This document shows positions 12,308-63,823 of a DNA stretch of 64,000 nt, piece by piece. The DNA is taken from the NCBI RefSeq assembly GCF_024713975.1, contig NC_091102.1, forward strand, positions 10,855,001-10,919,000, given 5' to 3'. The notes under the pieces were generated by a model that was given only the letters and a program-made list of their open reading frames with translations, was not told the origin of the DNA and made no database searches. Origin of the DNA: Paralichthys olivaceus. Its lineage: Eukaryota > Chordata > Actinopteri > Pleuronectiformes > Paralichthyidae. Both the position numbers and the translations under genes were made by a program. Positions within the stretch are counted from its first letter, which is position 1; the number at the start of each line of letters is the position of its first letter.

Positions 12308-15300
12308 CTGCCACAAAGACCTGAACTCCCTCTGTTCAATACGCAGGAGCTCACTGAATTCCCGTGTCACTATGGTGGCATGTCGGGGGGTGTTATCCAG
12401 AACAGACTCTCCAAACGCTGTGCCGGTCCCCAGTGTGCATATAATAACAGCATCCTATAACAGAAACAGAGGTAGTTCCCTGCATGGGTCATTGCTTCAT
12501 TACAGGGAAGCATGCAGCCACACAAGAACTATGCAAATGTAATGTCAGTACTCTTCTAAAGATAATGCTTTGTGCTTTACACTTGAGAAACAGTGGTCTA
12601 CTCTCAAAGGGTTAGAGGCAATCACCTGAGCACTTATGGTAGACAGACACATGCACTCCAATCTGCCCTCATATTACTCCAATCAGCCTCCAGACAAACT
12701 GGGGTGCATGAAGTCGTATAGTATTGAAAAATATTCAGCAATGTCCCTCAAACTAAAGTGTTAAATGTTCTTTACAGCCCACGTACACTCCAAACAAGCT
12801 TGGATGTGGATTCCTTTGCATGCGTGATGAATTTCAAGTGAGGCTTTACTGATAAAGTAACTCATCTTCACAGAGAGATGGACAGAGATGTTGTAAATAA
12901 GGCAAAGGGATTTTTTAAATTAAAGATATTTTAAAAAATATGTGAGGATTCCTGGTATGCTGTATGTGACATTCTTATAGGTCTACCTTAATATCCCATG
13001 TATTGTTTTACCATATTTCATTTACAACCAAGGTGTCGTGTGTGATCTTATCAGTCGTACCTGATGACGTGATGTCTCAGAGACTTTAACGTCCAGTGAA
13101 CCAGAGAGGACAGCATACCAGCTGGTGCCAATGTCTCCTTGGCGATACACTGAAAAAATGCAGCACAGTTTGAATAGATCAACCTTTTTTAATGACCTAT
13201 TTTGTTGTTTCAGAGCTCGTGTCTGGACGTACATGTGATGCCTTTCTCCAAACACTCGTAGAATCCACACAGGCAAATCTGCTGCAGCAAACCGGGGTGG
13301 AATCTCTCGAAGGCCTTTGCATATTTCAGACGTGCAAGGATGATATCAACATCTGCTCCAGAGCGCTCTGCTGGTCTGGAGACATACAGAGAAAATGATC
13401 ATTCAAAAGGAACTGCGCTTATAAATGTACATAACGCACCTAAATAGACTGCAGCCCAAGCAGCATAGTTTCATCTCTGTAGGAGGGATGTGACACCAGT
13501 TAATTCCTGCACAGCAGACATATTCTGTTTCATATAAACTCTATATGTTATAATTCAGCCTCACACAGTGGCAGCATCCTGGGCTGCTACAGTCTGATCC
13601 AGTATTCAAGTTTTCATCATCATCATCATCGTCACCATCATCAAATCAAATATAGAACTAGACAATCATGTGTAGGATGTGTTAGACTGTAGTGATGGAT
13701 TATTAAAATGTAGACAGCTTCTACTAGTCTGAAATTTATCATTACAACAACTCTGAGGTGACACGACTGTGGAACAATGACTAGTGTCCTCACACATATG
13801 TTCAATTTGTCCCAATTCTAAAGGGTCTGATGATAGAAATAAAAACTGTATCTCAGTGTTTTGTAGTAAATAAAAACATTTTGACAGATGATTTTAGAGT
13901 TACAGAAATACTTGAAGTTTAATTTAAAAGTAAGTTGTTTCTATTTTTTGGTGCTTTTACAATGACAGAAACAAACTGTAGCAGAAAATGCTGACCCTAT
14001 TCACATCACCTCAGGCGTGTCATCGTGTGCTTTATCCCCGTAACCCTCATGTTTCTTGTGTTACAGCACCACACATTTATTACACTAAATCCAGAAGCTC
14101 TGATGTAACATGTGGGTGGTTTTACAGTAGCATACAAACACTTCTGAATCCATGTTGTCCCTTTAAAAAGTGAAATACAACTGTATTAATAATTTAGAGA
14201 GGGGAAAGAAAGCTTTGCTTCAGCCCTGCAACAATTTCCGGACTCTCTAAAAACAATTCATCGTGCTAATATTTCCGCTCTGTCGTGGTACAATAAAAGT
14301 GTTTGAGCAACATTATCTCCATTCTGTGCACTTCCTGATAAGATGTTATGATCACATGTAACATGGGAGTTGCCCTTGTCTACTCTAAATTGTTTTTGTG
14401 CAGGAAAGGGACAGATTTACTGTCTTATTCCTACAAAGTGTTCTGTGGCAGAGTGAGCACAACAAGACGGAGCAGAGAGATGTGTGGGAGCCTGAGTTTC
14501 AGATATGAAGCCAAGATGTCTATTTGGACACAAGTCAACAACAAAAAAACACCTTAAAAAAAACACTGAAACAAGTGAAAACAGGATGTATTCGGGATGA
14601 GGCAGCTTTTTCAGTATTTATGAAATATAAACAACACAAACCTAATTTGAAAACTACTTTGAAGTTAAAGTCCAGCTGTGAGATGCAGAAGGTTTGTATA
14701 TCTCTGAATCTACTGAGTTCTTTATCGAACTGATTAAAACGGGTCATTGTGTTGTTTTATCTTCTGTAGAAATGCAATTAAGTTCAGTAAGTGACCTTGT
14801 TTTGGCAACATTCACGTTCATCAACCTCTGCAACATTTAATTAAACAGAATCATAAGGTGAACACCCGGGTGGAGCACACAGGCTATTTGCTGGCCTATT
14901 ACTAACCAGAGGATATTACTGTGTAAACATGTCTTGCACACTGCGTCACGTGGCTGTTTATAGATGATGTACTTTGAACCTCTGTTTGTGATGCGCCCCT
15001 CGTTCTGCCCCTTTCATACCGTGTATCTCATCTGAGCTGTGACCAGCCTCTCATTGTGAGTGTAAAGTGTAAAACCTCATTATCTTGAACACAGTATACA
15101 CACATATTGCAGTTTTTTGCGATAAATTGCAGATATTTACATTACAGCTGTGCGACACATCTTTCAGTGGTGATGCAGGTGTTCATAGCTCTTGTCATCA
15201 AAATTAGGTCACATCACTAAAGCGCTTCCTGCTTTAACACAGGACAGGTGTGCATACAGCAGTTCTTTTTTCAGGCCAAGATTTCCACAGTGATTTGTTG

Positions 15301-16312
15301 CTGAATTTAGTCTGAGGGTAAATTGTAAATAAACAGGCCTCTAGACTCCAAAGCATATTCCATGATGATAATGATGAGGCATCCACATGCTATTTATAAC
15401 ATCTTAACAGCTGATTGTCATCAAATATGGTCTTATAATTCTTATGAAACATTCAAATCTGTACAGCACTGCAATCTATTTATTTTCACAACCTCCAAAA
15501 ATCTACACCTCAGAGACAGCATCCACACAAGCTGCAGGGCTGTTCAATGTTGTATTGAACTTTTACACTGTGCACAATGCAGCAAAGAAGTGGCAGCTTG
15601 GTGTATGTATATTATCCAGTCCACAGAATCAGTGCAGCTCATATTCAGCTTATTGCAAAGAGATCATAAGGGAAATGTGTTGACATGTCTTTTAGAAAAT
15701 TATACTCCAGAATAATACTCTTTGTAATTCACACTTTAGATGTAGAGTACTGGGTACAAAATCCAATGACTTTTCAGCTTCATAAACCATCACAGTATTT
15801 GTCCTGGATATTAGCAATAATCAAAATTATAATTTAGTTAGTAAAACCACATATAGGAGTCAAATATGGATGTAGTCAATGCAAATAAACTTTTAACAGC
15901 ACATCAAACCCCATACCTGAAATTTCGTTGTGTCAATGCTGTGATTATTGTCCCCAGAGCTACAGTTTGTGCAAACTAATTTTGATTCAAACCCTCAGCC
16001 AGCAGTAAGGTAATGACAAACAAATGAACTCATAATATAAATGTATAACCTGACACCTGAGGCTTTCATGAATGATTCAATCACTGAGTCTCAATCCCAC
16101 TGGGAAATTAAAACTACAGAGTCGATGTTTTCATTCAGCTTTTGAAGCACGACGCCCAAAATCTGCTGAAAAATTCCCTTCATTCAGTTCATCTGTTATT
16201 ATTTGGGGAAATAAAGACACTGACATCACATTTAAATGAATTACCTCTTATCCAGACAAATAATCCACTCAGCAGATTCCGACGAATGTGAAGAAGTGTG
16301 CGCTGCTACCAT
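12308..16312 (-). CDS. rapgef4: rapgef4 (EPAC2), first four coding exons; 3' part outside window
   Basis: cAMP-activated exchange factor for Rap GTPases. Four exons read on the minus strand: 16312-16245 (start ATG, begins [16 protein letters not shown]), 13375-13233, 13149-13061 and 12454-12308. They join in frame into 149 codons. The product matches the EPAC2 N-terminus: the start MVAAH, then DVDII, a cyclic-nucleotide-binding fold with [20 protein letters not shown], and the phosphate-binding-cassette region [19 protein letters not shown], ending SLWQ. This is the first cNMP domain (CNB-A), which EPAC2 has and EPAC1 lacks. All borders are GT/AG. The DEP, second CNB, REM, RA and CDC25-type GEF domains are not in the window and must lie left of base 1 or in exons I missed. 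The start is chosen because it reproduces the family N-terminus. The a/b paralogue cannot be told from four exons. Confidence 0.95.
13376..16244 (-). other. rapgef4 intron 1
   Basis: A 2.9 kb intron from donor GAG|GTAATTC (minus strand) to acceptor CTCCAG|ACCAGC. It holds a short (ATC)n run near 13615 and otherwise AT-rich DNA. No exon was seen inside it. Confidence 0.75.
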
Positions 16313-16560
16313 CTTGCGATTCTCCTGCTGCTGCAGCTGCTATTGCTTCTGCGGAGGAGGAGGATGAGGATGAGGAGGAGGAGGAGGAGGAGGAGGAGGA
16401 GGAGAGGGCTGGAACACTTCATCTGCCTCCAAACACTCACTCACTCATTCCTCACAGGCAAATAGTCTCTGCTGCTGCTCACCTGTCCAGCATCAGCAGC
16501 ATCTAAATGAGTTAGAGGGGGAGAGCTGTAAAGTAGTGAAGAGTATTTTAATTGAGCATT
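16313..16560 (-). promoter_or_regulatory. rapgef4 5' leader / promoter region
   Basis: Sequence directly upstream of the rapgef4 start on the minus strand. It includes a (GGA)n tract at 16351-16407 (CCT repeats on the gene's own strand), only about 40 bases before the ATG, and GC-rich CTG-containing DNA. No TATA box was placed with confidence. Pyrimidine tracts of this kind are common in TATA-less vertebrate leaders; the exact start of transcription is unknown. Confidence 0.5.
16351..16407. repeat. (GGA)n / (GGAT)n microsatellite
   Basis: GGA triplets with two GGATGA interruptions, in the rapgef4 leader. The plus-strand frame through it (poly-Glu) is an artefact. Confidence 0.95.
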
Positions 16561-16661
16561 TACATTGTATGGTCCCTACTGCAGACAGAGTATTATATAT
16601 ATTTATATACTGTATGTAGAGAGGTAATTTTCACACAATACACACTCAGTTGCCATTGCTT

Positions 16662-21764: not shown

Positions 21765-21960
21765 ATGGAGGAGAAGGTGGAGGTGGTGGAGGACGAGGAG
21801 GAGGAGGAGGTGAAGGTGTTGGGGGAGGAGGAGAAAGTGGAGGAGGTGGAGCAGGAGGAGGTGGCGGAGGAGGAGGAAGTGGAGTTGGAGGAGGTGAAGG
21901 TGGTGGAGGAGGAGGAGAAAGTGAGGGTGGTGGAGGAGGAGGAGGGAATGGAAGTGGTGG
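21765..21960. repeat. Purine-rich GGA minisatellite next to promoter
   Basis: About 200 bases almost free of pyrimidines other than T in GGT, made of GGAGGA, GGTGGAGG and GGGGGAGG variants. It ends just before the GC-rich first exon of the neurabin-like gene. The Gly/Glu-rich and Ser/Thr-rich frames through it are artefacts of the repeat. Confidence 0.9.
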
Positions 21961-22862: not shown

Positions 22863-25800
22863 ATGATCAAAGCAGAAAGCAAAGTGGGCGAGAGGACCCT
22901 GAGGAGCGCATCCCCCCACAGAAATGCATACAAGTCTGACTTCCACGCCATTAAATGCACCTTTGATGGGCCAAAATCTGAGGGCTCCGCCAAATCGTAT
23001 ACGAATGGCTCCAGCGACACCCGGGAGGACTCAAGGGGGAGGCCATTTGGCACCAGAGTGAATAAGATAAAGAACATTTTCCTGCAGATGGATGGTCAGC
23101 AGCAGGAGTGTCAAGAAGCAAAGCCTCCTGTAAAGTCTGAGGTGACCCCGGTTTCCCCGCCGAAGCTGCAGTTTCCAGCCAACACACACAAAGTCAACTT
23201 CAACACCACCACAAGCCCCGAAACACACAATTTAGATAAAACACCCAAGGGGGAGGAGGTTGAGATTGACAAAGTGGCTTTGGCAGAGAAGTTTTCTGTG
23301 ACCAGAAAGCTCTTTGAAAGAGGCATCAAAGAGCAGCCCGTAGCTGAAAAGCAATCCCCGAACAGAGTCGTGAGTCGCCTGTCCCTAGGAAGTGCCTCTG
23401 ATGAGGGGAAAAGCACAAGGAGAGTATCGGGATCTTCGGAGACCACTATCAAATCAGAGCAGACTCCCACATCAACGGCAAACAGTCGAGATGAAAAGGC
23501 TGATGGTGAGAAAAAGCATGTGTCTAAAGCGTCTCTGAATTCAGGACCAATTTCTCGGAGGTTGGAGAATTACATGGCTGAGAATGACTCAGAAGACAAC
23601 GACACAGCTGCTGGAAAAGGGGAGATGGTGTCTGCCAAACAGCACAGTACCACTGAACACTCACTGCCTACCTCTCCAACTAGGGAGAGCTTACATAAAC
23701 CAAGGTCTCCTGTCAAAGAAGCCACCAGCTCTTCACCTGTAACTAATACCACTAACAAAAATACATCCCAGATGCCGTGTGTCACCAACAAACAGTCGAC
23801 CCCTGGGTCTAACAGCGGCTTCAAACCAACATCTCCAATTAGTAATGCAGCTTCCAAGTCTGTTTCTCCGACAACTGATGCCACTCACAAACCCCCCTCA
23901 CCGGACCAAACAACTCCAATTAGCCACGGCTACAAGGGTTCTACGTCATCTTGTGATGGATTTAGCAGGACATCTATTGGTGGAGATGAAGGCAAGCCAC
24001 ATAGTCCATCCCCGAGGGATGTGAAGCAGCCTCCTCCATCAGCTGGTGGCTTTCAAAACACCAACAGGACCAAATACTCCAGAAAAACCAAGAGTAATGA
24101 CAGTGTGGTTCCTTCCGGGGGGAATCCACCCAGCCAGAGCTCATCGCTGGACTCCAGAGGGGTGGGCATGGTACGGGCAGAGCTGGTGGTTGTTCAGAAT
24201 GAATCTTCGGAGAGCGAGGAGAATGAAGATGAAAACGCTGAAGATTGTGTGTTCGAGGAGGAGACAGTGCAAAGCCTTTCAGAGCAACCGATAGAACTGA
24301 AAAGAACCTTTCCACCAGAAATACAGAACTGTAACAGTCCTCATCAAGTCTTAGTTAGAGATGGTGCAAGAGAGACACAAAGGTTAGCAGAGACTGTGGG
24401 TGAAGGTAGAGTCCTCGAGGACGTTGAGCAATTTGAGTTGGAAGAGGACAGAGGAGAATATAGTTTGATTTCAAATGATGATAATCATGAGGAAGATGAT
24501 GAGGTAGCAGAGGAAGAGACTGAGCTGGAGGAGCATGTGGGTGAGAGCATCCTGGATCGGGCCTCTCCAGTAGTGTACGGTATTGAGAACGCAGCCTTTG
24601 TGGATGACAGGGATGTGGACCATGTCCTCAGGGAAGAGGAGGAGGAAGAGGAAGAAGAGGAGGAGGATGAGGTGGATCAAATGTATGTGGAGTATGATGA
24701 CTGTTATGAAGCCCCTGGTCTGTCAGATGAGGAGGAGCCTCCCACGAAGAGGAAAATCAACTTCTCCACAGGTCCAATCCTGGTACGTATTTTGTATTGT
24801 GTTGACATCTGAACCACCAGAAAACACATTGCACAGACCTGTCATCACAAACCACTGTCTCACTGACTCAGCAATGATGCGTGAACTAGGCGTTTCCCTG
24901 CAGACATACGACACACTAGAAGAGGCTATGTTTTTTGTCAGGGGTATTGATGTCACAGCTTCTGCACTCTATCATCACACATGCTTTGAAACAGCTCAGA
25001 AAAATCTCAACTAGTTGTTAATTTTTATCTTAGTAACCAGGGAGGCGGGTAGTTTGACAACCTCATCTACTTCTTCTTGCAAGAGAGAAATCCATAGAGT
25101 TGGGAGAAATTTGGGGGATGTGAGGTTGCAGCGTTGTTTGTGTGATATTTTTGGAAATACTGTTTGCATAACAAAGCATGTGAGATTGGGGCCACAGATG
25201 AACGAGGGCAGGAGTGAGACAGAGATATGAAACTTTCAAGACAGTAGCAGAAGAAAGGAACCAGGATCACCCTCTGAGTCACTGCACTGGTTTGGTATTT
25301 TTTACTCAGAGTGGTTCCCGTCTGTTGTGATTCATGAGGGACTTTTCTCTTCTTTCCAACATGGAGGAATTCAGGGATTTGATTCATCCATATGATCTCT
25401 TTTACAGATTATGGAAAGGTTATTTCTATCACTGCAGGGAGAATTCTTCATTTTTATTATCATGAAATTTATAAGGATATAAATCCTTGTGAACAGCAGA
25501 GAGGCACATTTAGCATTTTTCCATTTCTCTGAACGATCTTATTGGCTTTTGTGTTTGTGATTTGCGTAGCATCATTTCATTGGGAATAGATGTTCTACAG
25601 TTGAGTTTGTCGAGCTGACTGTCTCAGGTGGCCTGTGTGCAAAATGCAATCATGATATTCATATATTTGTTTTATTTTACCTTCCTTCAACAGTCAAGTT
25701 CAAAGAAATGTTTAAAACAATGCAACCCTAAAGACAGCATTCTATTGATGTCTTACATAAATAAAAATCAAATTAATCTTATAGAATACATGTATTTGAT

Positions 25801-43800: not shown

Positions 43801-46741
43801 GAGTTGTGTCGCCTGTTGTTTGATCCAAGCTTCAAGTCACCTCATTTTCTTTTTAAGACAAAAATAACATAGTACATTAAATAAACCTACAACAATCAAA
43901 GTTGATATCAGACTGGATAGAGGAGGAAGTTGTTTGTTGGTAACATGTGTGCGTGTCTGAAGAGAAACCTTGAAAAAACTTGACCTGGGTCCAAAAAAAC
44001 AGAAGCCTCCATTGCCCAGCAAAATTCCATCGCTGATCAGAAGCTTGCACTGACTTGGTGTGCAAATTTATTGCACAAAAAAACGCTTCTAGTGTGCAAA
44101 GGCCTATCGTGTTACTTGCTGTAGTTTAGATGTTGATGTAGTTGGTGGTGGACTGGTTTTAGCTTTAATCACCTTGAATATTGTGCTTCATAGTAGATGC
44201 TTGATCTTCTCACTTTCTTTCCACACGATGAAGATCAAACTTGGATTACTGCCCCTGTGATTGTTTTTTAATCATTTCTCGTTATTAATCCAACACTCTC
44301 CCCTCACAGCCCCTCACACCTGCAGCACCATGTTTGTGTTCCTCTCGTAGATCTGTGACGTGTGATACTTTTCAGTAAATACGTTCCTTGTTTCCACTTG
44401 TTCCAGAGTTTTTCAGTCATAGATGATTCTAACGCTGCCAGTCCCAGTTCAGACATCTCTGGGTTAGTTGCGGAGCCCAATCTGTCTGGGCGCTCACACA
44501 CTTTAATCTTCTCTTCCAGCGAGGTGAGTTTCTCGACATTGTTGCACCGTCACACAAAAGCCATGTGGGACGCCTTGATGCAGCTGAGAGGCGAGGTTCT
44601 CAAGCATGCTCTTTGAGCCCCCCCCCACACACACACACACATAACAGACACGTTTTAATAGCGAGTAGAAGAGGAGGAGTAGAAGAACTGCATGTGTGTG
44701 TGTGTGTGTGTGTGTTAGAGCTGTTTTGTGCTACAAGTCGTTTGGCTGAGCTTCGGTCAGCTGATATGTGAAGTTTGTATGTTTGCCTCTGTTAGAACTG
44801 TCAACCAATGCTTCATTTTCAGTACATGCTTTGGCACGGAACAAAACTGATGGCTGTGCTGCCTGCTCAGTGGTACCTCACCTCTGTTATTATAGTTCTT
44901 TAAGTGTCTCAGTTTCTCTCAGTGAAACACGAGGACGCATAGTGACATGCATCTGAGAATGTTGATACTTTGCTGTGATTGCTTGCATGTTTTTCTCTGT
45001 GCTCTCCTGGTGAATTTGTTCATCACACATGTCAGTAGAACTTGCACATGTGCTTTCGTTTATTGTTTACATACTGCGTACCTTTATCTGGAACTCTTTT
45101 TAAGGGATTTTTATGAATGAACTGGAAAACATGATCAATGTTTAACGACCATTAACTAGAATAGTACTTAGTAGAGCTCACACCTCCATCAAAGCCCAAC
45201 AGTGAATCAAATCTGCACCAAATCTCACACACTCATAGATATGAGTCCTAAACATGACAGATTTGTTTCTCATTATTTTTTGAAAAATTCGCAAATGTTG
45301 AACGAAGTGACAATGTTAAGAAATCCCTTCTAATCACATCCACTCCAAAATGATTTTGCAGAAAACCTCTTTAGGGGAGATTATTACACTGAATGCATAG
45401 ATTTGATTTATAACATCAACTATATCTGCGTATAAAGTCATTATAATCTATTTTCCATGCACCAGATATGAGTAGTGATCTTTTCACCGTAGAGCAAAAT
45501 ATTACACAAAGGAGTTGAACGCTGGAAAGATTTTCAGAACCATGCAGTTTTTTCTGCATTTGAATAGAAAGTATAAAATATTGATGCTCTCATTAAAGCA
45601 GCAGTTAGATGATTTGACTATATCTGTTTGTTTTATCTGTGTCCTGTGTAGACTCTGGATGATGAACCAGTAGCTGCAGGGAAAGAATATCAGTGGCAGA
45701 ACCGGCCTGTGTCTGAATGGACCAATCAGCAAGTGTGTCACTGGTTGATGGGAATGAACATGGACCAGTACACACCTGAATTCACAGCCAAGGGAGTGGA
45801 CGGACAGCAGCTCCTGTACTTGGATAGTGACAAATTAAAGGTCAAGGAAAAACTTACATGCACACACAGTGGGATCCACGATTCTATTTTCCCAATGAAA
45901 ATCAACGGTGATGATAATTGACTCTGGATTTTCTGTGTTATGATGCAGCTGGAAGGAACGTGATGTTTGAAATGTTTTTATTGTCCTCATACAAAGAGGC
46001 CTCTGTTACTGTCAAATAAGTCATAAGTTAAGCCTCGTCAGCCTTTGACTGCCACCCTGTGGCAAGAAGTTGCAAGTTAATGGTAACGTTGTAATTTCCT
46101 GTGAGGAAAGGAGAGAACATTTCAAGACAGGAAGACTGAATAAGGATGATGGGAGAACTACCCAATGAATATTTAATATATTAATATTTTAATCCTAATT
46201 GTTAACATTTCTCATAGCAAATTCTAAGACTAATATTTTGTGTAGTTTTCAGTTTAATATCCTGATGTAAATCCAAAGAAAAAGAGCAGAAACCATTAGT
46301 CGATCAATCAATGTGTTGACCATTAGAACATTTTTAGTTTGATTTGTAGATTCCAGCCTCTTAAATGTCAATATTTCCCAATTTAAGTTTCCTCATGTGA
46401 TAGTAAACTGTCTTTGGGTTTTAGTTTGTTGTCTCATTAACTCTGGGACATTTTGATTTGTAAAAATGTACTCTGTTTTCTCAGAGTAAAGACCAAATGA
46501 ATGAATGGTGATGAAAAGAAATGATGAAAACTTTGGTCTAAATATGCTCTGACGTGTTAAATCTGTGCTCTTGGCCCTTCAGGCACTCGGCGTGTCGAGT
46601 CAGAGCGACCGCTCAACGATCAAGAAGAAGCTGAAGGACATGCGCAAAGCTCAGGAGAAGCTGGAGAAACAGAGGGAGAAAAGAGAGAAGGAGGTTCGAC
46701 GCAGTGGGAAACTTCCTGTCAGTAATGACTCGGTCTGCTGA
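22863..46741 (+). CDS. ppp1r9al: Neurabin-family PP1/actin scaffold (neurabin-1-like), complete
   Basis: Scaffold that brings protein phosphatase 1 to actin-rich sites such as dendritic spines. Coding exons: 22863-24782, 35498-35630, 35902-36022, 36282-36386, 36666-36798, 38260-38418, 38526-38579, 39626-39855, 40044-40140, 40233-40359, 40554-40705, 41086-41410, 41496-41553, 41644-41718, 42032-42236, 44407-44523, 45652-45840 and 46583-46741. They sum to 1453 codons without a frame break (1452 aa). Order: N-terminal SASPHRNAY region (actin binding in the family); Glu-rich tract near 600; PP1 docking motif KINF at 631-634; family block [23 protein letters not shown] at about 676-770 (GLGI loop 688-691); coiled coil about 858-1000; SAMD14-like stretch from [11 protein letters not shown] at about 1358-1422; basic [15 protein letters not shown] tail. 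The symbol follows the fish PPP1R9A-like naming as I recall it; the a/b copy is not settled. Confidence 0.93.
28876..28919. repeat. Perfect 16-bp hairpin followed by poly-C
   Basis: Left arm 28876-28891 begins GGTCCTAAAAC. Right arm 28895-28910 is its exact complement. The loop is GCA and a run of Cs follows. It lies within intron 2 of the neurabin-like gene. Confidence 0.85.
34100..35170 (+). mobile_element. Decayed Tc1-like DNA transposon
   Basis: The plus strand carries broken remnants of a Tc1/mariner-family transposase gene. Recognisable pieces run from GAATTCTCAGTGAGGTCA through AACATCTCTGTTCATG, GCATCATGGTTTGGGCC, GGATAATGTCAGGGTG, TTGGCCCAGTCTGAGCC and CCTCCTGAATGCTTGTTAGAGG. The 3' end has the typical ACTTATGATGAAGATCAGG and CACATTCTTTTTCTTTCCC. 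Many stops and indels mean no frame is intact. The left limit is uncertain because no clear terminal repeat was found there. Confidence 0.8.
38783..39308. mobile_element. Non-autonomous DNA transposon with short inverted ends
   Basis: About 526 bp inside an intron of the neurabin-like gene. The left end is AAAGTAGACATATTATG and the right end is the complement of AAAGGAGACATATTATG, differing at one base. Internal text (TTCTGCAAAGTT, GAAAACACTGCTTCTTAAGC, GTTTCAGACAGAGGTTGAA, GATCATAATATGTCTCC) matches a repeat common in percomorph fish. No coding capacity was seen. Confidence 0.8.
42237..44406 (+). other. Intron 16 of the neurabin-like gene
   Basis: A 2.2 kb intron from donor AATAAA|GTATGAG to acceptor TTGTTCCAG|AGTTTTTC. 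The right half is largely occupied by a probable 0.7-kb transposon (43388-44106). The left 1.1 kb shows nothing recognisable. Confidence 0.7.
43388..44106. mobile_element. Probable non-autonomous DNA transposon with inverted ends
   Basis: The left end reads AAGGCCTTTGCACATC and the right end is the complement of TAGGCCTTTGCACACT; the shared core GGCCTTTGCACA is exact. About 720 bp lie between with no open frame. Target-site duplication was not resolved. Confidence 0.6.
44524..45651 (+). other. Intron 17 of the neurabin-like gene
   Basis: A 1.1 kb intron from donor AGCGAG|GTGAGT to acceptor CCTGTGTAG|ACTCTGG. It contains a C-run plus (CA)n at 44619-44642 and (GT)n at 44691-44715. No exon was seen. 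Confidence 0.75.
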
Positions 46742-49419: not shown

Positions 49420-52400
49420 TTAGAAACTACGAAACGTGGTCATGTCCTTGGGCTCTTTGCTCGGGACGCACCAGTCGTCGGCCTCGTGGATCGTCTTGTA
49501 GTGTTTCCATGCCGACTTGTTGTACACAGGCAGCCTCTCAATGGATTCTGTGGAGAGTGCCTGATGGGAAATTGAGAGGAAGTTCAAACATCCATTCTGC
49601 CTTTCTTCATGAAGATGCGCTTTTTGAAAAATTATGAAAAAATTACCCGAAAATAGATCACAGCATCAGTTCCATAACCCTCCAGAGAGTACAGCTTCAG
49701 GTCCCCTTGAAAGTAGCGAGCGTACAGACGAGAGATGGGGAGGCCGTAACCGTAACCAGCCTAGAAAATAACACAAAGCAGGGTTCCTCTGTGCAGCCTC
49801 AACACAACACAGAGCCACATCACAACTACAGCGACAGAGCAGTGAGCTGTTCTATGGTAAAGACAGGAAATGCATATTTTTCTTTGTGAAACAATGCAAC
49901 AGTGAGAAGGAAGTTCAGAAAAACTTTTTTTTTTCTGAGTTCTAGTATGAACTTTGCTGTTGAGGAGAAAACTTATATTATAGAAATCAGATCAGCTTCT
50001 GAGGTTGTCGACAGATTGACCCTTTAAGACAAAAAACTAAATTTGCACATGAAGGTTGTGATGAAGACTTGAAAGATTTTAGTGTTTAAAAAAAAAAATA
50101 TTGTTTTGTCATCTAACTGTACAGTCACTTCAGTAAAAGGACATTTGATCAAGATCAAAAAATATGATTTCGATGACAGACTTTGTTGAGAGCTGGTTTA
50201 AATCCTGACGCACCAGGACTGAGAAGATATTGATATTGAGAAGAACCCTGGTCAGTTATTGACGTGATCATCACGTTACGCTCCAGCAGAAGTCAGTAAC
50301 AATAAAACTGAATGATCAATCTAAGCCTGTTATGTTTATGTCCAAGATGTGTTTACTTTTATAAATACAGATATACCAGATTAAAACAACAGAGACAGAA
50401 GTGATTGCAAATATGTAGTTAAGGCACATAGAGTCAGTTCAATTTTAAAATGGGACATAGTATTAACACAAGAAGCAATGGCAGTAAATTAAGTTTAGAG
50501 TTTTTAATCTGTGTATGTTTTTCCGAGCACTGACCAGAGGAGCGGCGTGTGATCCGTCGAGGCTCGGCCGAGGAGCGGTGGAGTACGTGTAGGTGAACAG
50601 CCTGTCAATCTTCCGCAAAGGCACGCCTCCGCCGCGATCGCTCACCTGCAGAACAACATGTGGTTCTCATCGAAAACAAATATACAGGATGGATTTTCAT
50701 TTCCACATCTGTTGCTCCAACAGGTGAAGAGTTTATTCTGGTAAATTCTAATGAGAGAAATGAAACGGGGATAAATGGAGCAGATCAAACTGAGACACAA
50801 CTGATTTACCTTGACGGTCAGATCCTCAGTTCCCAGAGCGATGTGTGCGTGGATAGGAGGACACTCCATGGAGTCGCCATATAACTCCATGGTGGCCCGC
50901 ATAGCGTTCTGCAAAGAGGACGCGATGTTCAAGACGTTCTGCGACCTTTTAGTGTAAAATTGCTCTCATTGGATGTGACCAATTCACAGGATGAATAAAG
51001 GAACATTTAAATTTAGCTTATATGAAGAGTCCAAAAAGCAAACCTTACCTTAAAAAGTTCAAACACCATGTGATACAGATGAGACGGAACGTAGACCACA
51101 GTGACGGGGTTGTCCTGCTCTTTGACTGTCAGGACAAATACATCATAAAGAAATTCAATTAATTTTTATGGAACAAGGTTGAATCAAACTATTTCTATTC
51201 ATTTATCTCAAAATCCATGAATTGCTCCAGATTATAAGTGAAAGTAAATCTGTGAATACACGTACATACATAATTAAAGGTTTGTGTAGATGTATAGTAA
51301 ATAATATCCAAAACAAATTCACCATTGAATTCCTCCAGCTTCAGCTCAGGAGAGTTCATGTAATACCGGTCACAAAGATTTCTAGCGTTTTCGTAGGCGT
51401 CTACAAAGAAGACGTTTATTTTCAGGGAGAGACAGAAAAAACACTTTAATATTCAAATGAAAACTGTTTTAAAACTCTCACAGTTTGTTGCTCATCATGT
51501 TGGTGTTCTTAAAAAAAGACATTCTCACCTCTGATCACCTCACTGACCCGACAGTGCGGATCAATACTGCCGATCTGTTTGGGATGAGCCGGGTTCACCT
51601 TCACCTTCCCACCAAAGAGGAGCGCTAGGAGGAAACTGACACGTTATAGTCATGACTGACAAAAGCCAGAGTCATGTTTTTATGAAGTAAAAGAGAATGT
51701 TCTTACTGTGCTGGTTGAGCAGCATCCGGATGGATATCCGACTCATGTAGAAACGATCCAGGAAATACTGAACATTCTGGCTGACGACCGGGTCTGTGCC
51801 GTACGTCTCTTTGTATTCCACGACTCCCTGAGCCATGGTGGGAATGACATCATTGTGTCGATTTCTGATTTTTATCACAGCGTCTGTGAAACTAAACAGA
51901 AATACATGAAGTGCAGAAAGAAACAGATTTCCACTCATTTAAAAACATCATTATTATCACTGCCTGGTGTGATTCACTTACTCATACGCAACTTTCTCAT
52001 CAGCTGCATTTTTGTCTTTGAACTCAAGAATCTCCTGTAGACTCTGCATGTACCTGTGCAAAGAAAAAGAAATCACTGTACAGGCGGTTGCATCAGTGTA
52101 ATCAGAGAGATGACATGGACGACACAAAACCTGCATACCAGCTCTGAACCAACCGGACTGATGGGGTCCTTAACAAGTTGTCTGGCAGTAAGTTGATTTC
52201 TTTCATGATGTTTGCCAACCTCACAGGCAACTCCTGTCTGAGGAAGACGAAGGATGTTTTCTCGCATCCATTTTCTGAACCTGAGGAGTGAAAACACAAA
52301 CAGAATCATAAGTAGCCTCTTGTGTTAATGTTCTAAAGAATAATGTGAGCGGTTTATTATTTATGTTGGTGCACATGTTGTTTTTTTAAAGATATTTTTG

Positions 52401-52924
52401 GACACTTTTATAGATAGGACTGAGTTAAGTGTGAAAGAGGGAGTGAGGACATGCAGCTTATGTAAAACCTCAGCTGCTGCAGATGACTCAAGCCTCCAGA
52501 TGGAGGCAACAGGATTATTGAAACTATGAAAATAAAAGAAAATTTGTAATTTTGCCATGTCATTGTAGGCAATTGGTTCGGGATTAGGTTTTTGGTTAGG
52601 CTGTCCACAATGAATGGAAGTCAAAACAAAGTCCTAACAAGGATAGCTGCACAAACGTGTGTGTGTGGTCCAGGTCTTACTCAGGTTGCAGGGACAGGGG
52701 CCACAAACAGTTGTAAGTTTAGGTTAAGGTTTGGTTTAAATCAGGGTCAGTAGGTTAGAGCCAGTCTCCAGGAATTTAATGTAACTCATGTGCTCTAAAG
52801 TGACTGGGGTCTTACCAAAATCCAGAAACTGCTTAATGGAGAGAGGAGACGGTGAGAATTTGGAGTAATAGTCGATGTCCTTCCCTATGGACACGCTGCT
52901 CCTCAGAAACCTTAAGATCCTCAT
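49420..52924 (-). CDS. pdk1: Pyruvate dehydrogenase kinase 1, complete
   Basis: Mitochondrial matrix kinase that phosphorylates the pyruvate dehydrogenase E1-alpha subunit and switches off pyruvate oxidation. Exons (minus strand): 52924-52816, 52280-52139, 52053-51982, 51891-51707, 51624-51529, 51400-51323, 51125-51049, 50908-50810, 50645-50535, 49760-49647 and 49560-49420. The sum is 1224 bases, 407 aa plus stop. Visible motifs: Arg-rich presequence [16 protein letters not shown] with the family's conserved His at 120; N-box ELFKNAMRAT with Asn254; G1 box DRGGG at 289-293; G2 box GYGYG at 325-329; DW at 390-391. PDK1 rather than PDK2, 3 or 4 is shown by [29 protein letters not shown] and the tail [18 protein letters not shown], and by adjacency to itga6 and rapgef4. 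The presequence is about 30 residues shorter than in human PDK1. Confidence 0.95.
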
Positions 52925-53990: not shown

Positions 53991-55990
53991 ATGAGCGGAG
54001 GGTTTACCTTCGGGCAGCCCGCTGGAGGCTTCGCATTCGGGGCCCAGAAGACCGCAGCCGCGGCCCCCGTTCAGGGCTTCGGGCTGCCAAACTCCGCACC
54101 TGTAGCCGCTGGAGGGGGCTTCACCTTCGACACCGCCGCCCAGGCCAACGCCAACAGTACCGGAGGTTTTAGTTTCGGGACCCCAGCAAAGAGCACGGCA
54201 GCCGGGGGTGGAGGACTTTCTTTTGGGACCCCCACCCCCGGCACGTTTGGTCTCGGCGTGACTCCTCAATCCACCGCCGCAGCACCAGCCCCGGGTTTGA
54301 CTCTAGGCTCCGCGGTAGCTCCAGCTGCGATGTCAGGGTTCACTCTGGGCGGCGCGTTGTCCGCACAGACCACCGCTGCCGCCCCCCCAGCTGCAGGCGG
54401 CTTCACATTCGGGACGGCTCCTCAGGCTCAACCCCAACTTGCTGCACAAGCGGCAGCTGCCGCACCACCACCGGCAGCGGCAGCAGCCGCAGCCGCCGCC
54501 GCAGCGGCAGCAGCATCAGGTGGCCTCTCGTTTGGAAGCTTCAGCTTTGGGGCTACAAAGTTACAAGCGACCACAGCTGCAGCCCCCACTGTCCCCACAG
54601 GAGGAGGCTTCGGCTTTGGCACCAGTGCTCCCTCCAACCTCACCCTGGGCACCCAGCCCCAGCCAGTCTCCACCGCTGCAGCCCCAACAGCTCAGGGTGG
54701 AGGGTTTGGCTTTGGGATTAAACCTTCATCCACCCCAGCTCCTCCAGCATCAACACAGCCAGCCCCAGCCGTAGGTCCCTCTCTCTTTTCAATGCCCTTC
54801 ACTACAGCTCCTGCTCCTGCTCCAGCTACTGGCTTTACTCCGAGTGTAGCTCCAACTGCAGCAGCAACCACCGCTCCTGCAATAACCACAGCAGCTAGTG
54901 GAGGCATGTCTTTTATGCTCAAACCTCTGGGGGCAGCTACCGCCACCTTGACCCCTGCCACTGCCCCTGTCTCTACTGCGGCTGCCACAACAGGTGCTGC
55001 AGTAGCCTTTACCCTGGGACTCAAACCTGCATCTGGCATTAGCACCACAACAACCGCCACAACAATCACTACAACAACGGCTCCTCCGGTGATGTCCTAC
55101 GCCCAGCTAGAGGGTCTCATTAACAAGTGGAGTCTCGAACTAGAGGACCAAGAGAGACATTTCTTACAGCAGGCGACTCAGGTGAACGCCTGGGACCGAA
55201 TGCTTGTTGAGAATGGGGAGAAGATCACAGCCCTGCATAAGGAGATGGAGAAGGTAAAGCTGGACCAGAGGAGGCTGAACCAGGAACTGGATTTCATCCT
55301 GTCCCAGCAGAAGGAGCTGGAGGATGTGCTCTGCCCGCTGGAGGAGTCTGTGAAAGAGCAGAGTGGAACCATCTACATGCAGAACGCCGACGAGGAGCGC
55401 GAAAGAACATACAAGCTTGCAGAGAACGTGGACGCGCAGCTGAAGAGGATGTCGCAGGACCTGAAGGAGATCATTGAGCACCTGAACACATCCAGCGGCC
55501 CTGCAGACACCAGTGATCCAGTAAGATGAAACCCGGCTTGTAAACTAGCTTTGTGTTTTAAGTGTGCTGTTCTGTAACATTGGGGAATAATCCATAGATC
55601 CCTCGGTGCATTCCATGTCTTTAAGGTTTAGTGCAAATCTGACGAAACAAAACAGAAAGAAAACAAACAAACCAAGGAAATCATTAGGCAACAATTATAA
55701 ATATATCAAAAATAGTCATTAGAGAGCTATCTTCATTACAAGAAAGGTACAAAACTTTTGTCCTGATGAAATGTTCATGCTTTTGATATTTTACGCTTAA
55801 TTAACATCTGCCTGTTGTTTTCTTTTCATAGCTTCAGCAGATCTGTAAAATTCTCAACGCGCACATGGATTCTCTTCAGTGGATCGATCAGAATTCCGTG
55901 CTCCTGCAGAGACGAGTGGAGGAAGTGTCCAAACTGTGTGATAACCAGCGCAAGGAGCAGGAGAAAACCTTTCGTTTAACATTTGACTGA
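53991..55990 (+). CDS. nup62l: Nucleoporin p62, complete, two coding exons
   Basis: FG-repeat nucleoporin of the central channel of the nuclear pore, working with Nup54 and Nup58. Exon 1 is 53991-55520 and exon 2 is 55832-55990; the join is in phase and gives 562 aa. Residues 1 to about 365 are low-complexity Ala/Thr/Pro with FG repeats (GGFTFGQPAGGFAFG, GGLSFGTPTPG, GGGFGFGTSAP) and a poly-Ala run near 160-175. From about 368 (MSYAQLEGLINKWSLELEDQ) the conserved Nsp1/p62 coiled-coil domain follows, ending LLQRRVEEVSKLC and KTFRLTFD, which closely matches vertebrate p62. The ATG at 53991 is used because it gives the family start MSGGFTFG. The symbol follows zebrafish nup62l as I recall it; human NUP62 lies on another chromosome. 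An AATAAA lies 5 bases after the stop. Confidence 0.93.
55521..55831 (+). other. Intron of nup62 within the coiled-coil coding region
   Basis: A 311-base phase-0 intron from donor GATCCA|GTAAGA to acceptor TTTTCATAG|CTTCAGCAG. Without splicing, translation would stop three codons past the donor, losing the last 53 residues. Confidence 0.9.
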
Positions 55991-55995
55991 TGGGA

Positions 55996-57389: not shown

Positions 57390-60300
57390 CTGAGAGGGGA
57401 AGATTGCAAACGTTTAAAAACACACAAGAGATTTATTTTTATGAAATCAATGTGTGCACATTGTAAACAACAGAGCGGAGGTGTTAAGCATGCTTTGCAG
57501 ATTTTAACAGGTCATTTTAAGCTGTAACAGCCATGTCAGCGAAAGCACCTGCAAAGCACTGTTACAAAAAGGTAGAACAAGTTAAGCCTGCTGGTAAGAA
57601 AGCACATTCATTTATTGGCAAAATTCAGAGACACATATTGTACAAATACCAGAGAAGTTTTGATCAATTATACTTTTCTAATTTTACAGAGACTGGATTC
57701 TATTGGTACGCGAACATTTCTCCAGATAACCTGCCTCCTCTGCTTCGTACAAAATGTGTCTGATTGAATTTCGCCACAGTAAATTAGCTGCTTTGGCCGG
57801 AGAGTGAGTCGGTTAGTGGCGGCAGGAATCACACTCCATGCTGACAGCTTGTTTTTACCCCTGTTCACAGGATAAATCAGGCCTCAGCAGAGAGTTTGTC
57901 TTTGTCAGAGGGTTGGACATGGATCTCTGCCTTGTGATATGCAGCATCATACTGGTCTTTTGTTGCTCTCTTGAAGAAACCACACTGAGGGGGGGAGTAA
58001 GGGTTGTGGATGGTTAAGAGTGACAGTGACACCAGTCAATGGCTGATAGGATTTCTTCTTTCAGCAAAACAACAGAAAGAAACGAGTTTGTTAAGGGAAT
58101 GACTTCATCTGGTGAATCCAGTGGACACCAACCAGATATTTCTCACTCATCTATGGAATAAAATGGTAGTGTCATTTAAAAAGGAACCGATTCTAATATC
58201 AGACTCTGAGTGTCAATAGATGATGTCACAGATATACACACTTGCTTTTTCACATAATTAAACCCTTGAATAGTCAGTAACCACATATCTAAGTTCATGG
58301 GGTGGAAAGTTATTTTTTCTTTTCCATGTTCACAAATTCACATTATAAATTAAAATGTCCGTCATTTCCTGTTTCTCATCTGCACTTTGTTTGGATCATG
58401 TGACTGTCAGAATAAAACCTTTCAGAACAGAAGTCGGATTTATTTATTATCTTCTGTAGCTCTGATGTTCAATTATGGATATTTCATCTCAAATTCTGAA
58501 CTTTTTCAATCAAGAAAAAAAAGTTTACGACTAATCAAAAAATTAAGAACCCCCCCGCTGATAATACAACTTTGGACTCGCCCAACGTAAAGCAGCCCGT
58601 CAGCTCGTGTTTACGTCAGTTTGGCGCCAGTCGGTGGAGTGTGAAGCTCCGGACATGATCCAGTCATGTGAAGAAAGTTTAGTTAGAACGCTTCACTGAG
58701 ACATCGAGTTTAAACTACACTAACAACACTTTAATCTTCTCACCCAACAACATGGCGCCTCACGTAAAGACGGTAAGCTAATGCTAACTCTGCGTTAAGA
58801 GGCTAAGTCAACTTTGTGTGTTATTCTCTCTGGGCAGAGAAAACACCGCCAGTCTTATGTCTGCTGTGGAAATCAGGTTAAATGAATCAGTACGTTGCAA
58901 GTACCGTCACTTCATGTTCATGATCATGTTTATTTACAGTTTATTTCGGTGAATGAAGCTGTTGCATTGAGGCTGATTTAATTAACACTAATCATCCCTG
59001 ACTAATCGATTGGTTCGACTAGGTTCGATTTTCCACTTTTCATTCATTCATCAGTTTTTTTATTTCGAACATGAAAATACAAAAGAGAAATTAAACATAC
59101 AAATCATTTTTTACAAACAGTGATGAGGAAAACAAATAAAAACTTGTTGATTTAATGTAAACATTCAAAAATGAATGAGAAGAAGTGCATTTAATCTCAC
59201 CCCTTCACTATAAATCAATAATAATTATATTGTTCTTAACCAGCGTCCTATGTATCTATGAATATGTTGTTGACCCGTGCTCTATATTGTATATAATGTA
59301 TAAAAAAATATATGTAATAATACATGCAATATAAATAATTATATATAATAATAATAATAATATATACATATATTTGTATATGCATTTATACATATATAAG
59401 TAAAGAAAGGTAAAGAAACTCTAATTTCAGGTTGACTTTTCTGGAAGTGTGTTGCATTCACATAAGGAAAATAATAATATTGAGTGATCTCAGAATTCAA
59501 AGAAATGTCTTTCTGAATTAATGAGATCACTCAAATTATTATTATTATTATTTTTTATGCTTTCCATCTGAGTAATCCCAAAGTTCAGAGATGCCTGCAT
59601 AAAGTCCACAAACTAATAGTAATGTCGTCTATATTTCTAAAGATATTTTACTATGCACAGAATAAACCCTCTTCAACCTATTTTCTTAGAAGATTCAATG
59701 AAGTTCATGTTTTAACTCACCATTTAACACTACATGGGTGATATGAAGATGTAGAACTCACCTTCCAGAGCAGAAACACCAGCAGAGCCAGGATCTTGAT
59801 TCCTGCGAGAACAGCCACCAGTATGATCCACCAGGGAACTCCTCCATACTGAGCTACGGCACTTTCTGGAGACACGGCCACTGTCACCTGCCATGAAACA
59901 ACAAAGGGAGTGAAGCCAAGCACTTTAATATCAAGGTATAAAACAAAGTTAGTATTTGTTGTAGCTGTTGAGCTGCTTACATCAGTGTCAGGGGTTGTCA
60001 GGATCATGTTTTCAGCCTGGGCGTGAAGCACGAGTAAGGCCTTCACGACTATATGTAAGGTTGAAACGGTGGCGTAATCCTGCGTAAAAACAGAAGCACA
60101 TGCTTAGGTGGAGGTAGAAATCAGTAGGACCAGCGTTATCACAAAAACATGGATGATATCTCACCTCAATAAAGGTTGAGTTCCACAGACGAGACCTCAG
60201 CTCAATTGTTGTACCGTCCAGGCCCTGCAGGGGGCACTTGAGCACCACACATTTGAGCCCATTGTCACAGGTCTAGAGGAGAAAGAGCCTATTACACATC

Positions 60301-63300
60301 AAATCTAAAAATCTTAAAAAGACTGTGAATACATCCATACACATACTCACCAACACTTTGTTTTTCTCTAACAGAAAAGCCTTTTTTCTTTCAGCTTTTC
60401 TTTGTTTTCTCTCAATTTCTCGTTTTGTCCGGGACACACTGGTCTCCTGAAAGCACGATTATCTCAATATTAAAAAGCCTTAAGCGTAACGTGGTCTTAC
60501 TTTAAGTACCTGAAAATAAAGAGGAATTATAGAGTCCTACCTGGATGTGTTTGAGATAGTTGATCTCAGACTCAGGAGAGCAGTGGACGTCCTCCTCTCC
60601 TGTCGCTGTGATCTTCACCAGATACAACAGCCATTTCCCATCTTTGTTGAATTTGGGCCACTGAATGTGCAGTGAGGCTTTAACAGAAGGCTTCAGAGAC
60701 TTCCACAGGTTGTTTATCTGCAGGAGTAATCAACACAGAAGCGTTTACTTACTTCATACATTATCACATCAACATTGGATCATTATCAGATGGATAAACT
60801 TACTCTGAATGTAAAGTTAATCAAGCTTCCAATCTCCTCCTCTGTCTTCATGGCACTTTCTCCTTTCACAACGCCTCCAAAAGAAACCTGACTAGGGCTG
60901 GCCTCCCTGGGGAAAACAAGCAGATATTTTATAATGGATAAGTTTTCATTGCCATTTGTTTGTCTGTGTTTTTATGAGCATTTATTTACATAAAAAAAAC
61001 TACTGAACCGATTCCCATGAAATCTTGTGGGTCATGACCCACTCTCTGTCTCTCTCAAACAGTAGTTTCCCATGACATGATTCATAACAACACACTTACC
61101 CACTGACGGACAATGGTAGTTCAATCACCACCTGAGCCTTTACTTTCACCGGGATTGTATTTCTTTGCACGCTGGTCCTGAAAGAAAAAGCACAACAAGC
61201 AATAAATTGATATGTAGAGTTAACAACTTTGTTTTATGACACTTTCACATTGTAGTCCGGCAATTTTTCACCAGGTGCAGTTCTTAACATGAAGCTCAGT
61301 GTCTGTAGTACTTACGTGTGGAGCTGCAGGTCAATGTCAATCTCTGTCGTGTCGAGATTCATACCCACTGTGCTCAGGATGATGAAAAAGGTCGTCTTGT
61401 AGAAAGAAGCAAAGAACAATCTTTCACATTTGAAGAGCTAAATGTCAAAGTCAGGATTAGCAGGTGAACACGACAAGTCTTTACCTCTGAGTCTCTCCTA
61501 AAAGGATTTCCCAGCTCGCAGTCCGCCTGAGAGCCGTTCTGATTGGCAATACAGATGATCGGCTGGAAAGAACAAATCATTACTAAACCTTTTCACTGGG
61601 CATGGTAATGGCTGACAAGGTGATTTGATTTATTTATGTCACCATCTATTTTGTGGATTCCTGTGAAATTTTGTCAAACCACGTATGATCCCCATTGGAT
61701 GAATTGTGATGACTTTGGTGACTTCTCATCCAGTGCGACAAATAGGTCAAAAGGCATTCACCATGGAAACGTGAAAACTTGCACTGTACTTAGACACAGC
61801 TTTGATGGTTATCATGTTAACATATAAACTGCTCACAGGTTATAATGTGTTTTAACATACTTCATTTTTATCTAACATGCTAAATAAAGCTCAATACTAT
61901 CTGGTATCAGCCAAACTCTGTCTCTAGTAGCGAGAATTGCAGCAAAAATGATTTAAATTTTTTTTTTTACCATTTGTGGTTTAAATAAAAATATAGTTAA
62001 TCTTATTTAATTTTACAACTATATTTCTCAAAGTAAGGTATTGTGGAAAAAAGGATAATTTCAGTATTATGACAGTATAACATCACCTATTGTTTAGAAT
62101 TCATTTTTCTTTACCACTTTGGCTCCAAATGTTATTATTTACACTTCACTAATGGTGAAATTGCCTCGTTTTGTTTTTTCCTAACATGTATGTCATATTT
62201 TACTTTGACTGTGTTTCTGTGAACTTACCATTGTTTGTTGGGAGCGGACTCCAGAATACGACAGTGCATCTGGGAAAGTTCCCACCAGCTTTGCCTCATA
62301 AGCATCGTCTCCGTCCATGTTGTTCACCGTCACCCGCAGAGCCAAGTCCTTCCTCTCGTAGTTCAGGTGAAACATGGGGACGTTGTTCTTGCTGCAGAAA
62401 CACAAACATGGACGCTCACCTCAGGCTGAGCTTGGTGGAGACAAACAGGCTCGTGCTATGTTTTCATATATTACAATAGGTTTATCAAGCTGTAGTAGCA
62501 AACCTTAATTTTTAACCACTGCCTTATTATCACAGCCAGGGAAACATACATGTTGTTAAAACATTTTTTTTAATTGAATTGAATTTTTACTGTATGAGTT
62601 GCAGAACTTACACAGGTAGTGGGGTATGCATGTTGTTTTGTCTGTAGAATAATTTGTACTCCATCTTCAGGTTACTGCGACAAATATGATCACTTCCACA
62701 TCCCTCTTTTACAAAGTTCACCTGCAACAAGGACAAATAAACAACCAAACTTGCCTCCATTTAAACCATTTTGTCCTTAAATTCATAGTTTAAGTCTTAC
62801 CTCAATGACTTCCTTGCTCAGTTGAGAGGAGTCTAAAATGGGCATAAGCTGAGGGAGGCCGTTCCTTGACTTCTGTCGCTTTGTACCCAGAATTTCTGCA
62901 GACACCTCGATAGGGATACTTCGCATCTTGTCCTTAATGTTGTCCTGAGGAAATCAGAGACAGCAGATGTAGAGTGGAGCATAATCCTGGCCTTTAATTT
63001 ATTTATCCATATATACGTACATTTTACTGAAAACAGTGCACAGTATTCATGTCTTTTGCTCTCTGTGTGGATTCTATCCTGCCGATGTGGTTTATCTCTG
63101 TGATCAATATGTTTTACCTTGAGTTTAGCTTTTATCTTGATACACGTTTCCTGTTTTTGACCCCGAAGGTCCAAGGTGCCATTAAACAAGTAGTCCGTGT
63201 CCAAGTGGGATTTGTTCATGAACATAACCCTGGAGGTCAGTCCGTGCTTCCTGCGATCTCCGTCTGCCTCCACAGAATAGCTGATAGCTGCAGTATTGTG

Positions 63301-63823
63301 GAGAAACACGTGTAAGAAAGAAAGGCTGAACAATGTTGTGTCAGGATAATAAATCTTCTTTGACTCACTCAGTCTGGGGCTGTAGGATGCTGGGTTCGCC
63401 GTGTAGGTGAAGCATGCATCCACGGTGAAGCTATTGTCAGAAAAGTGATTTTAAAAATAATTTATAACAGTGTAACTTTTGACTGTGAGGCCTGTTTAAT
63501 TATAAGAGTATTAGAGCACATACCAAATGCTGTTACCGCAGGTTTTGATTGTAAGGTCAATTTCCCGCGGAGATATTTTGACATCTCTCCTGATGCTAAT
63601 GATTGGTCGGGCCCTGAAAGAAAGGTTGTTAAATGAAGTTGTGATGGGAATCAGTGGGGTTTAATTCCACTCACAATGTGTGTGGAAACAATTACCTGTA
63701 AATTAGAGCGGTGTCAGACAGAGAGCCCACAGCTAGGTCTGGATAAGAATTACTGTCCAGGTCCATGTTTCCTGCCAGAGAATAACCAAATAACTGGAGC
63801 TGGTGTTCTTTTCCTGAGAGGAT
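57225..63823 (-). CDS. itga6: Integrin alpha-6, C-terminal part; 5' part outside window
   Basis: Laminin-receptor alpha chain of epithelial hemidesmosomes and neural tissue. Sixteen shared exons (minus strand): 63823-63696, 63613-63524, 63430-63369, 63287-63118, 62944-62801, 62721-62612, 62391-62229, 61562-61485, 61395-61316, 61177-61100, 60906-60804, 60717-60541, 60446-60351, 60272-60165, 60079-59981 and 59887-59762. They join into 604 codons, followed by one of two tail exons. Seen: last beta-propeller FG-GAP repeat with Ca-binding DLDSNSYPDL; thigh/calf segments (KEGCGSDHICRSNLKMEYK, NQNGSQADCELGNPF, WPKFNKDGKWLLYLVK); a furin-type site RTKR|E; LRSRLWNSTF; transmembrane segment PWWIILVAVLAGIKILALLV; and KCGFFKR. 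The RTKR site, the WNSTF block and the tail exons fit ITGA6 better than ITGA3 or ITGA7. Missing: signal peptide and most of the propeller. Confidence 0.95.
57877..57984 (-). CDS. itga6: itga6 alternative cytoplasmic exon A
   Basis: A 108-base exon encoding CGFFKRATKDQYDAAYHKAE then IHVQPSDKDKLSAEA and TGA, the counterpart of the alpha-6A tail (AEIHAQPSDKERLTSDA in mammals). It carries its own stop, so inclusion gives isoform A and skipping gives isoform B. Both exons begin at the same phase-0 codon after LLWK. Confidence 0.93.
   Translation of the reverse strand, partial: CGFFKRATKDQYDAAYHKAEIHVQPSDKDKLSAEA
58560..58772 (+). other. Promoter-like block with putative first exon, nested in an itga6 intron
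   Basis: In the intron between itga6 transmembrane exon and tail exon A, on the opposite strand. It has an E2F-like TTTGGCGCC (58620-58628) beside a CRE-like TTACGTCAG, then a leader and ATG in good context (AACAACATGGCG, 58752). The frame reads MAPHVKT up to a consensus donor GACG|GTAAGC at 58773. The gene is not recognised and no convincing continuation was found. Confidence 0.3.
59467..59548. repeat. Imperfect hairpin (MITE-like)
   Basis: The left arm, around ATTGAGTGATCTCAGAATTC, pairs with the right arm GAATTAATGAGATCACTCAA, with a short AAAGAAATGTCTTTC turn and flanking ATT/AAT runs. It lies in the same itga6 intron as the putative nested first exon. Confidence 0.7.

Follow-up and report, generated by a model that had tools for sequence, protein, structure and literature searches.

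A probable third vertebrate neurabin beside pdk1 in Paralichthys olivaceus, with spinophilin and SAMD14 as likely halves of a split neurabin

The DNA analysed here is a stretch of 64,000 nucleotides from Paralichthys olivaceus (hereafter referred to as the window; contig NC_091102.1, designated C10, C10:10855001-10919000), which carries a gene of the neurabin (PPP1R9) family. Searches with tblastn, based on human protein probes, placed itga6, pdk1 and rapgef4 on the minus strand and the neurabin on the plus strand, between rapgef4 and pdk1 (Table 1). Both parts of this layout had been claimed in a previous reading of the same letters (the sequence-only reading), and both were borne out: the minus-strand genes by the tblastn probes together with matches to PDB chains, and the complete opposite-strand neurabin by a predicted gene model spanning 22863-46741, whose 16 coding exons encode 1388 amino acids in an open frame and whose 15 introns all have GT/AG ends. 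The end coordinate of this model falls one base short of the end of the stop codon. A chance open reading frame or a pseudogene was considered and rejected on the basis of the canonical introns and the uninterrupted frame. We consider it highly likely that this gene is a third, independent vertebrate member of PPP1R9, derived from an ancestral neurabin-PDK-integrin block that was duplicated in the genome doublings of the HOX paralogon and later copied again with its block, the HOXB-side copy having split.

The predicted protein has the hallmarks of the PPP1R9 family. It contains RKINF, in keeping with the PP1-docking rule [RK][VI]xF, and matches PF17817 (E 4.3e-29) and PF00595 (E 6e-13); the Pfam matches over the cut-off were PDZ_5, PDZ, SAM_2 and SAM_1. 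The SAM_2 match (E 1.6e-17) corresponds to a C-terminal SAM of the neurabin-1 type, and the closest PDB chain was Neurabin-1 9gsu (E 2.6e-68). The N-terminus is 37% identical to human neurabin-1 across 175 columns, with putative F-actin binding, and a coiled coil is predicted by homology (54% identity to human neurabin-1 in exon 8). By homology, the protein would bring PP1 to actin-rich membrane sites, binding F-actin through its N-terminus and docking PP1 through KINF, while the PDZ domain would hold the tails of membrane proteins, the coiled coil would dimerise and the SAM would mediate further contacts. We infer these binding activities, and the expression of the protein, from its relatives. 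The gene resembles PPP1R9A (neurabin-1) in its domains, including the SAM, in the intron ends at exons 2 and 3, in its tail-to-tail PDK neighbour and in its core, which is 72% identical to that of human neurabin-1. A GGA-rich microsatellite (21767-21945) lies about 0.9 kb upstream of the start codon.

The genome (588 Mb in 25 contigs) was searched with the sequence from the PP1 motif onward, which gave at least 53 matches at E <= 0.1; 59 of 82 candidates were scored. Neurabin-type matches were obtained on C10 (the window), C16, C20, C5 and C21; C5 also gave a SAM exon, at 139.6 kb, and C1 a fragment of coiled coil. The C20 gene (ppp1r9a) was nearest to human neurabin-1 (88% identity in the core) and the C5 and C21 genes (ppp1r9b) were nearest to spinophilin (87% each), with no SAM matched for either ppp1r9b in the stretches searched. 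The C1 fragment (C1:15642480-15642695, minus strand) is spinophilin-like, crosses an exon boundary without an intron and contains a stop, features that suggest a processed pseudogene. With PDK1 as the query, 36 matches were obtained, on C10, C20, C21, C17, C5 and, in one weak case, C15. As PDB scores could not name the C20 kinase (PDK1 302, PDK2 292 and PDK4 285 bits) and barely set PDK2 apart from PDK1 for the C5 kinase, we used a small PDK tree built from four conserved blocks with the human PDKs. In this tree, the C10 kinase grouped with PDK1 (92), C17 with PDK3 (100), C20 with PDK4 (68) and C5 with C21 (73), the last two lying beside PDK2 with a value of 41. On C20, ppp1r9a lies tail-to-tail with pdk4, so that C10 and C20, which are paralogous chromosomes within one genome, each carry a neurabin-PDK pair in tail-to-tail arrangement. 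The window gene nevertheless differs from PPP1R9A in its linkage, the separate C20 gene being linked to pdk4 and not to pdk1-itga6-rapgef4.

A sister block was found on C16, where 48 kb in total were covered. It contains rapgef4, a neurabin and itga6 in the same order and orientations as the window, without pdk1; none of the 36 genome-wide PDK matches falls on C16, and PDK1 and nup62 probes gave no match at E <= 1e-3 in these 48 kb. The integrin of C16 was set against two sequences only, human ITGA6 and the window itga6. Because this block repeats the order and orientations of the window, the arrangement is older than the duplication giving C10 and C16. That duplication was presumably the teleost 3R event, given the wide core divergence of the two neurabins (70% identity) and established knowledge of teleost genomes. 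The neurabin blocks on C10, C16 and C20, with co-chromosomal ppp1r9b and pdk2 on C5 and C21, lie on paralogous chromosomes and predate a later block duplication, as ohnologs would.

Phylogenetic trees were inferred for seven rows from 239 core columns, or from the core plus 70 SAM columns. The core tree gave strong support to a window+C16 clan (99) and to spinophilin (97), with a weak placement of human neurabin-1 relative to the C20 gene (53). In the core+SAM tree, three clans were recovered, neurabin-1+C20 (78), spinophilin (98) and window+C16 (100), and three separate clans was the best of six topologies. The sequence trees thus favour a separate window+C16 clan without settling its placement and, consistent with the claim of the sequence-only reading for a distinct gene, they give the window gene no firm place within either the ppp1r9a or the ppp1r9b clade.

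Two other origins were weighed against these trees. The window gene might have arisen from ppp1r9a by a teleost-specific (3R) duplication and come to lie next to pdk1, a reading in keeping with the retention of the SAM in both proteins. The approximately unbiased (AU) test rejected descent from fish ppp1r9a with core+SAM (0.018 with both copies, 0.039 when C16 was left out and 0.004 when the window gene was), but not with the core alone (0.058 with both copies, then 0.077 and 0.067 with the same respective omissions) or with core+SAM under the mixture model LG+C20+G4 (0.144), and neither the Kishino-Hasegawa test (0.17, 0.08) nor the Shimodaira-Hasegawa (SH) test (0.72, 0.53) rejected it with both copies. 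Such a duplicate would also have had to land tail-to-tail with a PDK, as its source ppp1r9a lies with pdk4, and to do so before the C10/C16 block duplication. Descent from fish ppp1r9a is therefore disfavoured, and we regard the 3R duplicate as distinctly improbable; a transposed copy of ppp1r9a was rejected on the same core+SAM AU values and the same need for a PDK-adjacent landing. A fast-evolving copy of ppp1r9b (spinophilin) is scarcely credible: AU values against descent from within fish ppp1r9b were low for both copies together (0.039 and 0.016; mixture model, 0.022) and for the window gene alone (0.002), and ppp1r9b is already present on C5 and C21, both without a SAM match in the stretches searched, although the SH test (0.15 in both) and the C16 gene alone (AU 0.22, 0.15) gave no rejection. 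As an orthologue, the window gene corresponds neither to PPP1R9A, having its own clan with C16 (99-100), pdk1 as its neighbour and AU values of 0.004-0.14 against C20 descent, nor to PPP1R9B, given AU values of 0.016-0.039 with both copies (SH 0.15), the presence of a SAM and, again, the pdk1 neighbour.

Several observations weigh against an independent third member, in addition to the non-significant AU, Kishino-Hasegawa and SH values for descent from ppp1r9a and ppp1r9b given above. The trees have only seven rows, two of them human sequences. A tree uniting human neurabin-1 with the window clade was never rejected (AU 0.66, 0.23, 0.41; 0.82, 0.33 without C16; 0.10, 0.08 without the window gene) and was the best of the six topologies on the core alone. 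Both window-type copies evolve fast, and their long branches may push them outwards. The 11 kb separating ppp1r9a and pdk4 on C20 are an unread stretch, and ppp1r9b and pdk2, although co-chromosomal, lie about 1.9 Mb (C5) and 2.1 Mb (C21) apart; the 8 kb upstream of each pdk2 gave zero matches to any probe, integrin included, a result that is uninformative.

The sequence tree being the weaker line of evidence, it is synteny that carries the argument for a third ohnolog. The ancestral neurabin-PDK-integrin block proposed in the sequence-only reading is supported in part, through the position of ppp1r9a beside pdk4, the presence of ppp1r9b on the pdk2 chromosomes, the C16 block and, less firmly, the separate clan in the trees. 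One such block would have been duplicated, with an inferred 2R step, to give PPP1R9A, PPP1R9B and the window gene, which would have stayed beside pdk1, itga6 and rapgef4 and been copied again with its block to C16, presumably in the teleost genome duplication. In the simplest history, a whole ancestral neurabin would have stayed undivided on both the HOXA side (ppp1r9a) and the HOXD side (the window gene), the HOXB-side neurabin would have broken between exons 10 and 11 to give spinophilin and SAMD14, and the HOXD-side gene would have been lost in the human lineage. The labels for the HOX sides are assumptions taken from human positions. In the mouse, Rapgef4 is brought near HoxD by large inversions lying between HoxD and Itga6, one of them 2.4 Mb long (PMC5547506), in agreement with a window block on the HOXD side. 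Table 1 of PMC2685005 lists Itga6 and Pdk1 beside DLX2, and Itga3, Pdk2 and Samd14 beside DLX3.

Very probably, one ancestral neurabin gave rise to both spinophilin (PPP1R9B) and SAMD14 as its two halves, through a break between exons 10 and 11 of the HOXB-side duplicate, the HOXD-side duplicate remaining whole and surviving in fish beside pdk1. The C5 SAM exon is part of samd14, a gene whose stretches match human SAMD14 in order and which lies on the same contig as ppp1r9b (Table 1). Between samd14 and the window neurabin, exon 11 matched with E 1e-5 and the two SAM exons with E 3e-14 and 2e-4. By inspection, stretches of the KRRF-D-G and F-WF types between exon 11 and the SAM follow the same order in both genes, and three intron phases are common to them (1 before exon 11, 2 after RRF..D.G and 0 within the SAM). 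On C5, the stretch of ppp1r9b after the acceptor starts like exon 10 (ISDLE versus ISVLE) and reaches a stop after 17 codons; exon 10 of the C21 spinophilin was looked for and not found. Collinearity of samd14 with exons 11-16, the common phases and the stop of spinophilin in exon 10 are what make the two genes look like a split neurabin, and they suggest that spinophilin covers exons 1-10 and samd14 exons 11-16. This pair resembles the window gene, with spinophilin matching up to exon 10 and SAMD14 from exon 11 to 16, and differs from it in being two genes rather than one, on the pdk2 chromosomes.

The alternative, that SAMD14 acquired its SAM and a short stretch resembling neurabin on its own and is no split-off neurabin end, is unlikely. 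SAM domains are common, most linkers between the common motifs had no tblastn match to the window neurabin, and direct blastp of the window C-terminus against human SAMD14 gave nothing usable. Against an independent gain stand the single order of the matching stretches with their three common phases and the exon 11 stretch, for which the window neurabin and fish samd14 share 14 of 36 residues, the maximum over 20000 shuffles being 11. Linkage points the same way: samd14 is on the ppp1r9b contig here, and PPP1R9B neighbours SAMD14 in both cattle and human (PMC3833843), one automatic bovine PPP1R9B model even overlapping SAMD14. The whole neurabin with a SAM is probably the older form, because worm NAB-1 (PMC6179291) and fly Spinophilin (PMC4633989), each described as the sole homologue of its species, carry a SAM. 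These two proteins are similar to the window protein in combining PDZ, coiled coil and SAM, and differ from it in being the only family members in their genomes. For human 17q21, the order given in the sequence-only reading is PPP1R9B-SAMD14-PDK2-ITGA3. Given the split of the HOXB-side neurabin, this order suggests a neurabin front, a neurabin back, a PDK and an integrin, which is the block of the window.

Exon 11 of the window neurabin includes, within 40554-40705, a stretch resembling a capping-protein-binding site. In Samd14, capping-protein binding maps to residues 37-55, a stretch 64.7% identical to Neurabin-1, itself noted as SAM-bearing, and changing R43 and R45 together lowered this binding without abolishing it (PMC9282853). 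At these two positions, human neurabin-1, human SAMD14 and fish samd14 have R,R, whereas the window neurabin and its C16 sister have R,P, a further difference from PPP1R9A. The change from R to P at the R45 position in both window-type copies leads us to predict an altered affinity for capping protein.

Table 1. Positions of the genes and exons discussed; positions without a contig are those of the window.
Feature	Position	Strand	Remarks
Neurabin exon 1	22863..24782	+	Start codon, F-actin-binding-type N-terminus (putative), PP1-docking KINF near exon end
Neurabin exons 2-5	35498..36798	+	PP1-contact stretch after the motif, PDZ; GT/AG splice sites
Neurabin exons 6-9	38260..40140	+	Coiled coil, by homology
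Neurabin exon 10	40233..40359	+	C5 spinophilin counterpart appears to end after 17 codons
Neurabin exons 11-14	40554..42236	+	Collinear with samd14; capping-protein-binding-like stretch in exon 11
Neurabin exons 15-16	45652..46741	+	C-terminal SAM, stop codon; PDB 2gle (Neurabin-1 SAM) E 5.8e-23
rapgef4 (EPAC2), 5' part	972..16312	-	5 coding exons found; runs off low window end; tblastn, PDB
rapgef4 exons	16312-16244, 13377-13234, 13156-13061, 12454-12308, 1040-972	-	tblastn
pdk1	49426..52876	-	Tail-to-tail with neurabin; tblastn, PDB, PDK tree
nup62-like, single exon	53991..55529	+	Between pdk1 and itga6, head-to-head with pdk1; PF05064 (Nsp1_C) E 1.4e-34
itga6, 3' part	57880..63835	-	5' part beyond window; tblastn, PDB
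samd14	C5:136.8-140.4 kb		Collinear with neurabin exons 11-16; same contig as ppp1r9b, ~1.36 Mb away
rapgef4 (C16)	C16, 13.744-13.753 Mb	-	Truncated by fetched edge
Neurabin (C16)	C16, 13.763-13.772 Mb	+	
itga6 (C16)	C16, 13.787-13.775 Mb	-	
ppp1r9a	C20, 11.673-11.700 Mb	+	Tail-to-tail with pdk4
pdk4	C20, 11.711-11.717 Mb	-	

The identities of the flanking genes were supported by PDB chains. With the translation of the window itself as the query, RAPGEF4 matched 1o7f (E 4e-92) and 2byv (E 3e-91), and PDK1 matched 2q8f (E 2e-184). At about 1.0 kb, lower than the start given in the sequence-only reading, rapgef4 has one more exon, and the nup62-like gene between pdk1 and itga6 is likewise an addition to that reading; rapgef4 and itga6 are each truncated by a window edge. 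The top PDB match of the window integrin was the integrin alpha-6 chain 7ceb (E 4.4e-60). Itga3 was considered in place of itga6 and rejected on this match and on the neighbouring pdk1 and rapgef4. No alpha-3 or alpha-7 chain was present among the best 60 of 66 PDB matches, so the choice of alpha-6 over alpha-3/7 depends partly on the neighbours. Two alternative exons of the itga6 cytoplasmic-tail type were observed on the minus strand, at 57987-57880 and 57392-57318, the second a weak match (E 0.7); we take them to be of the B and A types, respectively.

The zebrafish and carp genes named ppp1r9ala and ppp1r9alb probably correspond to the C10 and C16 genes as orthologues. Mammals are not known to have a third neurabin. 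No description of a third 2R neurabin, or of SAMD14 as a product of fission, was found in the open-licence literature, which is weak evidence of absence. Two neurabin families are described for mammals in PMC4633989. The sequence-only reading was right that PPP1R9A-like fish genes already have names: ppp1r9ala occurs in a carp paper (PMC10113649), which indicates that genes of the window type are named in databases.

The neurabin family would gain a third branch, and with it an undivided protein beside which the spinophilin and SAMD14 of mammals can be viewed as parts that have come apart. If so, the fission of a single gene would have produced both a phosphatase scaffold of synapses and a stress factor of red cells. 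The SAM, together with the stretch that binds capping protein, would have been severed from the part that carries actin binding, PP1 docking and the PDZ domain, and the HOXD-side copies would have altered one of the two arginines on which the capping-protein affinity of SAMD14 depends. With a third branch, two questions become testable: at what point the lineage leading to mammals lost its HOXD-side neurabin, and whether SAMD14 was freed for its role in blood cells by the separation of the SAM and capping-protein part from the phosphatase scaffold.

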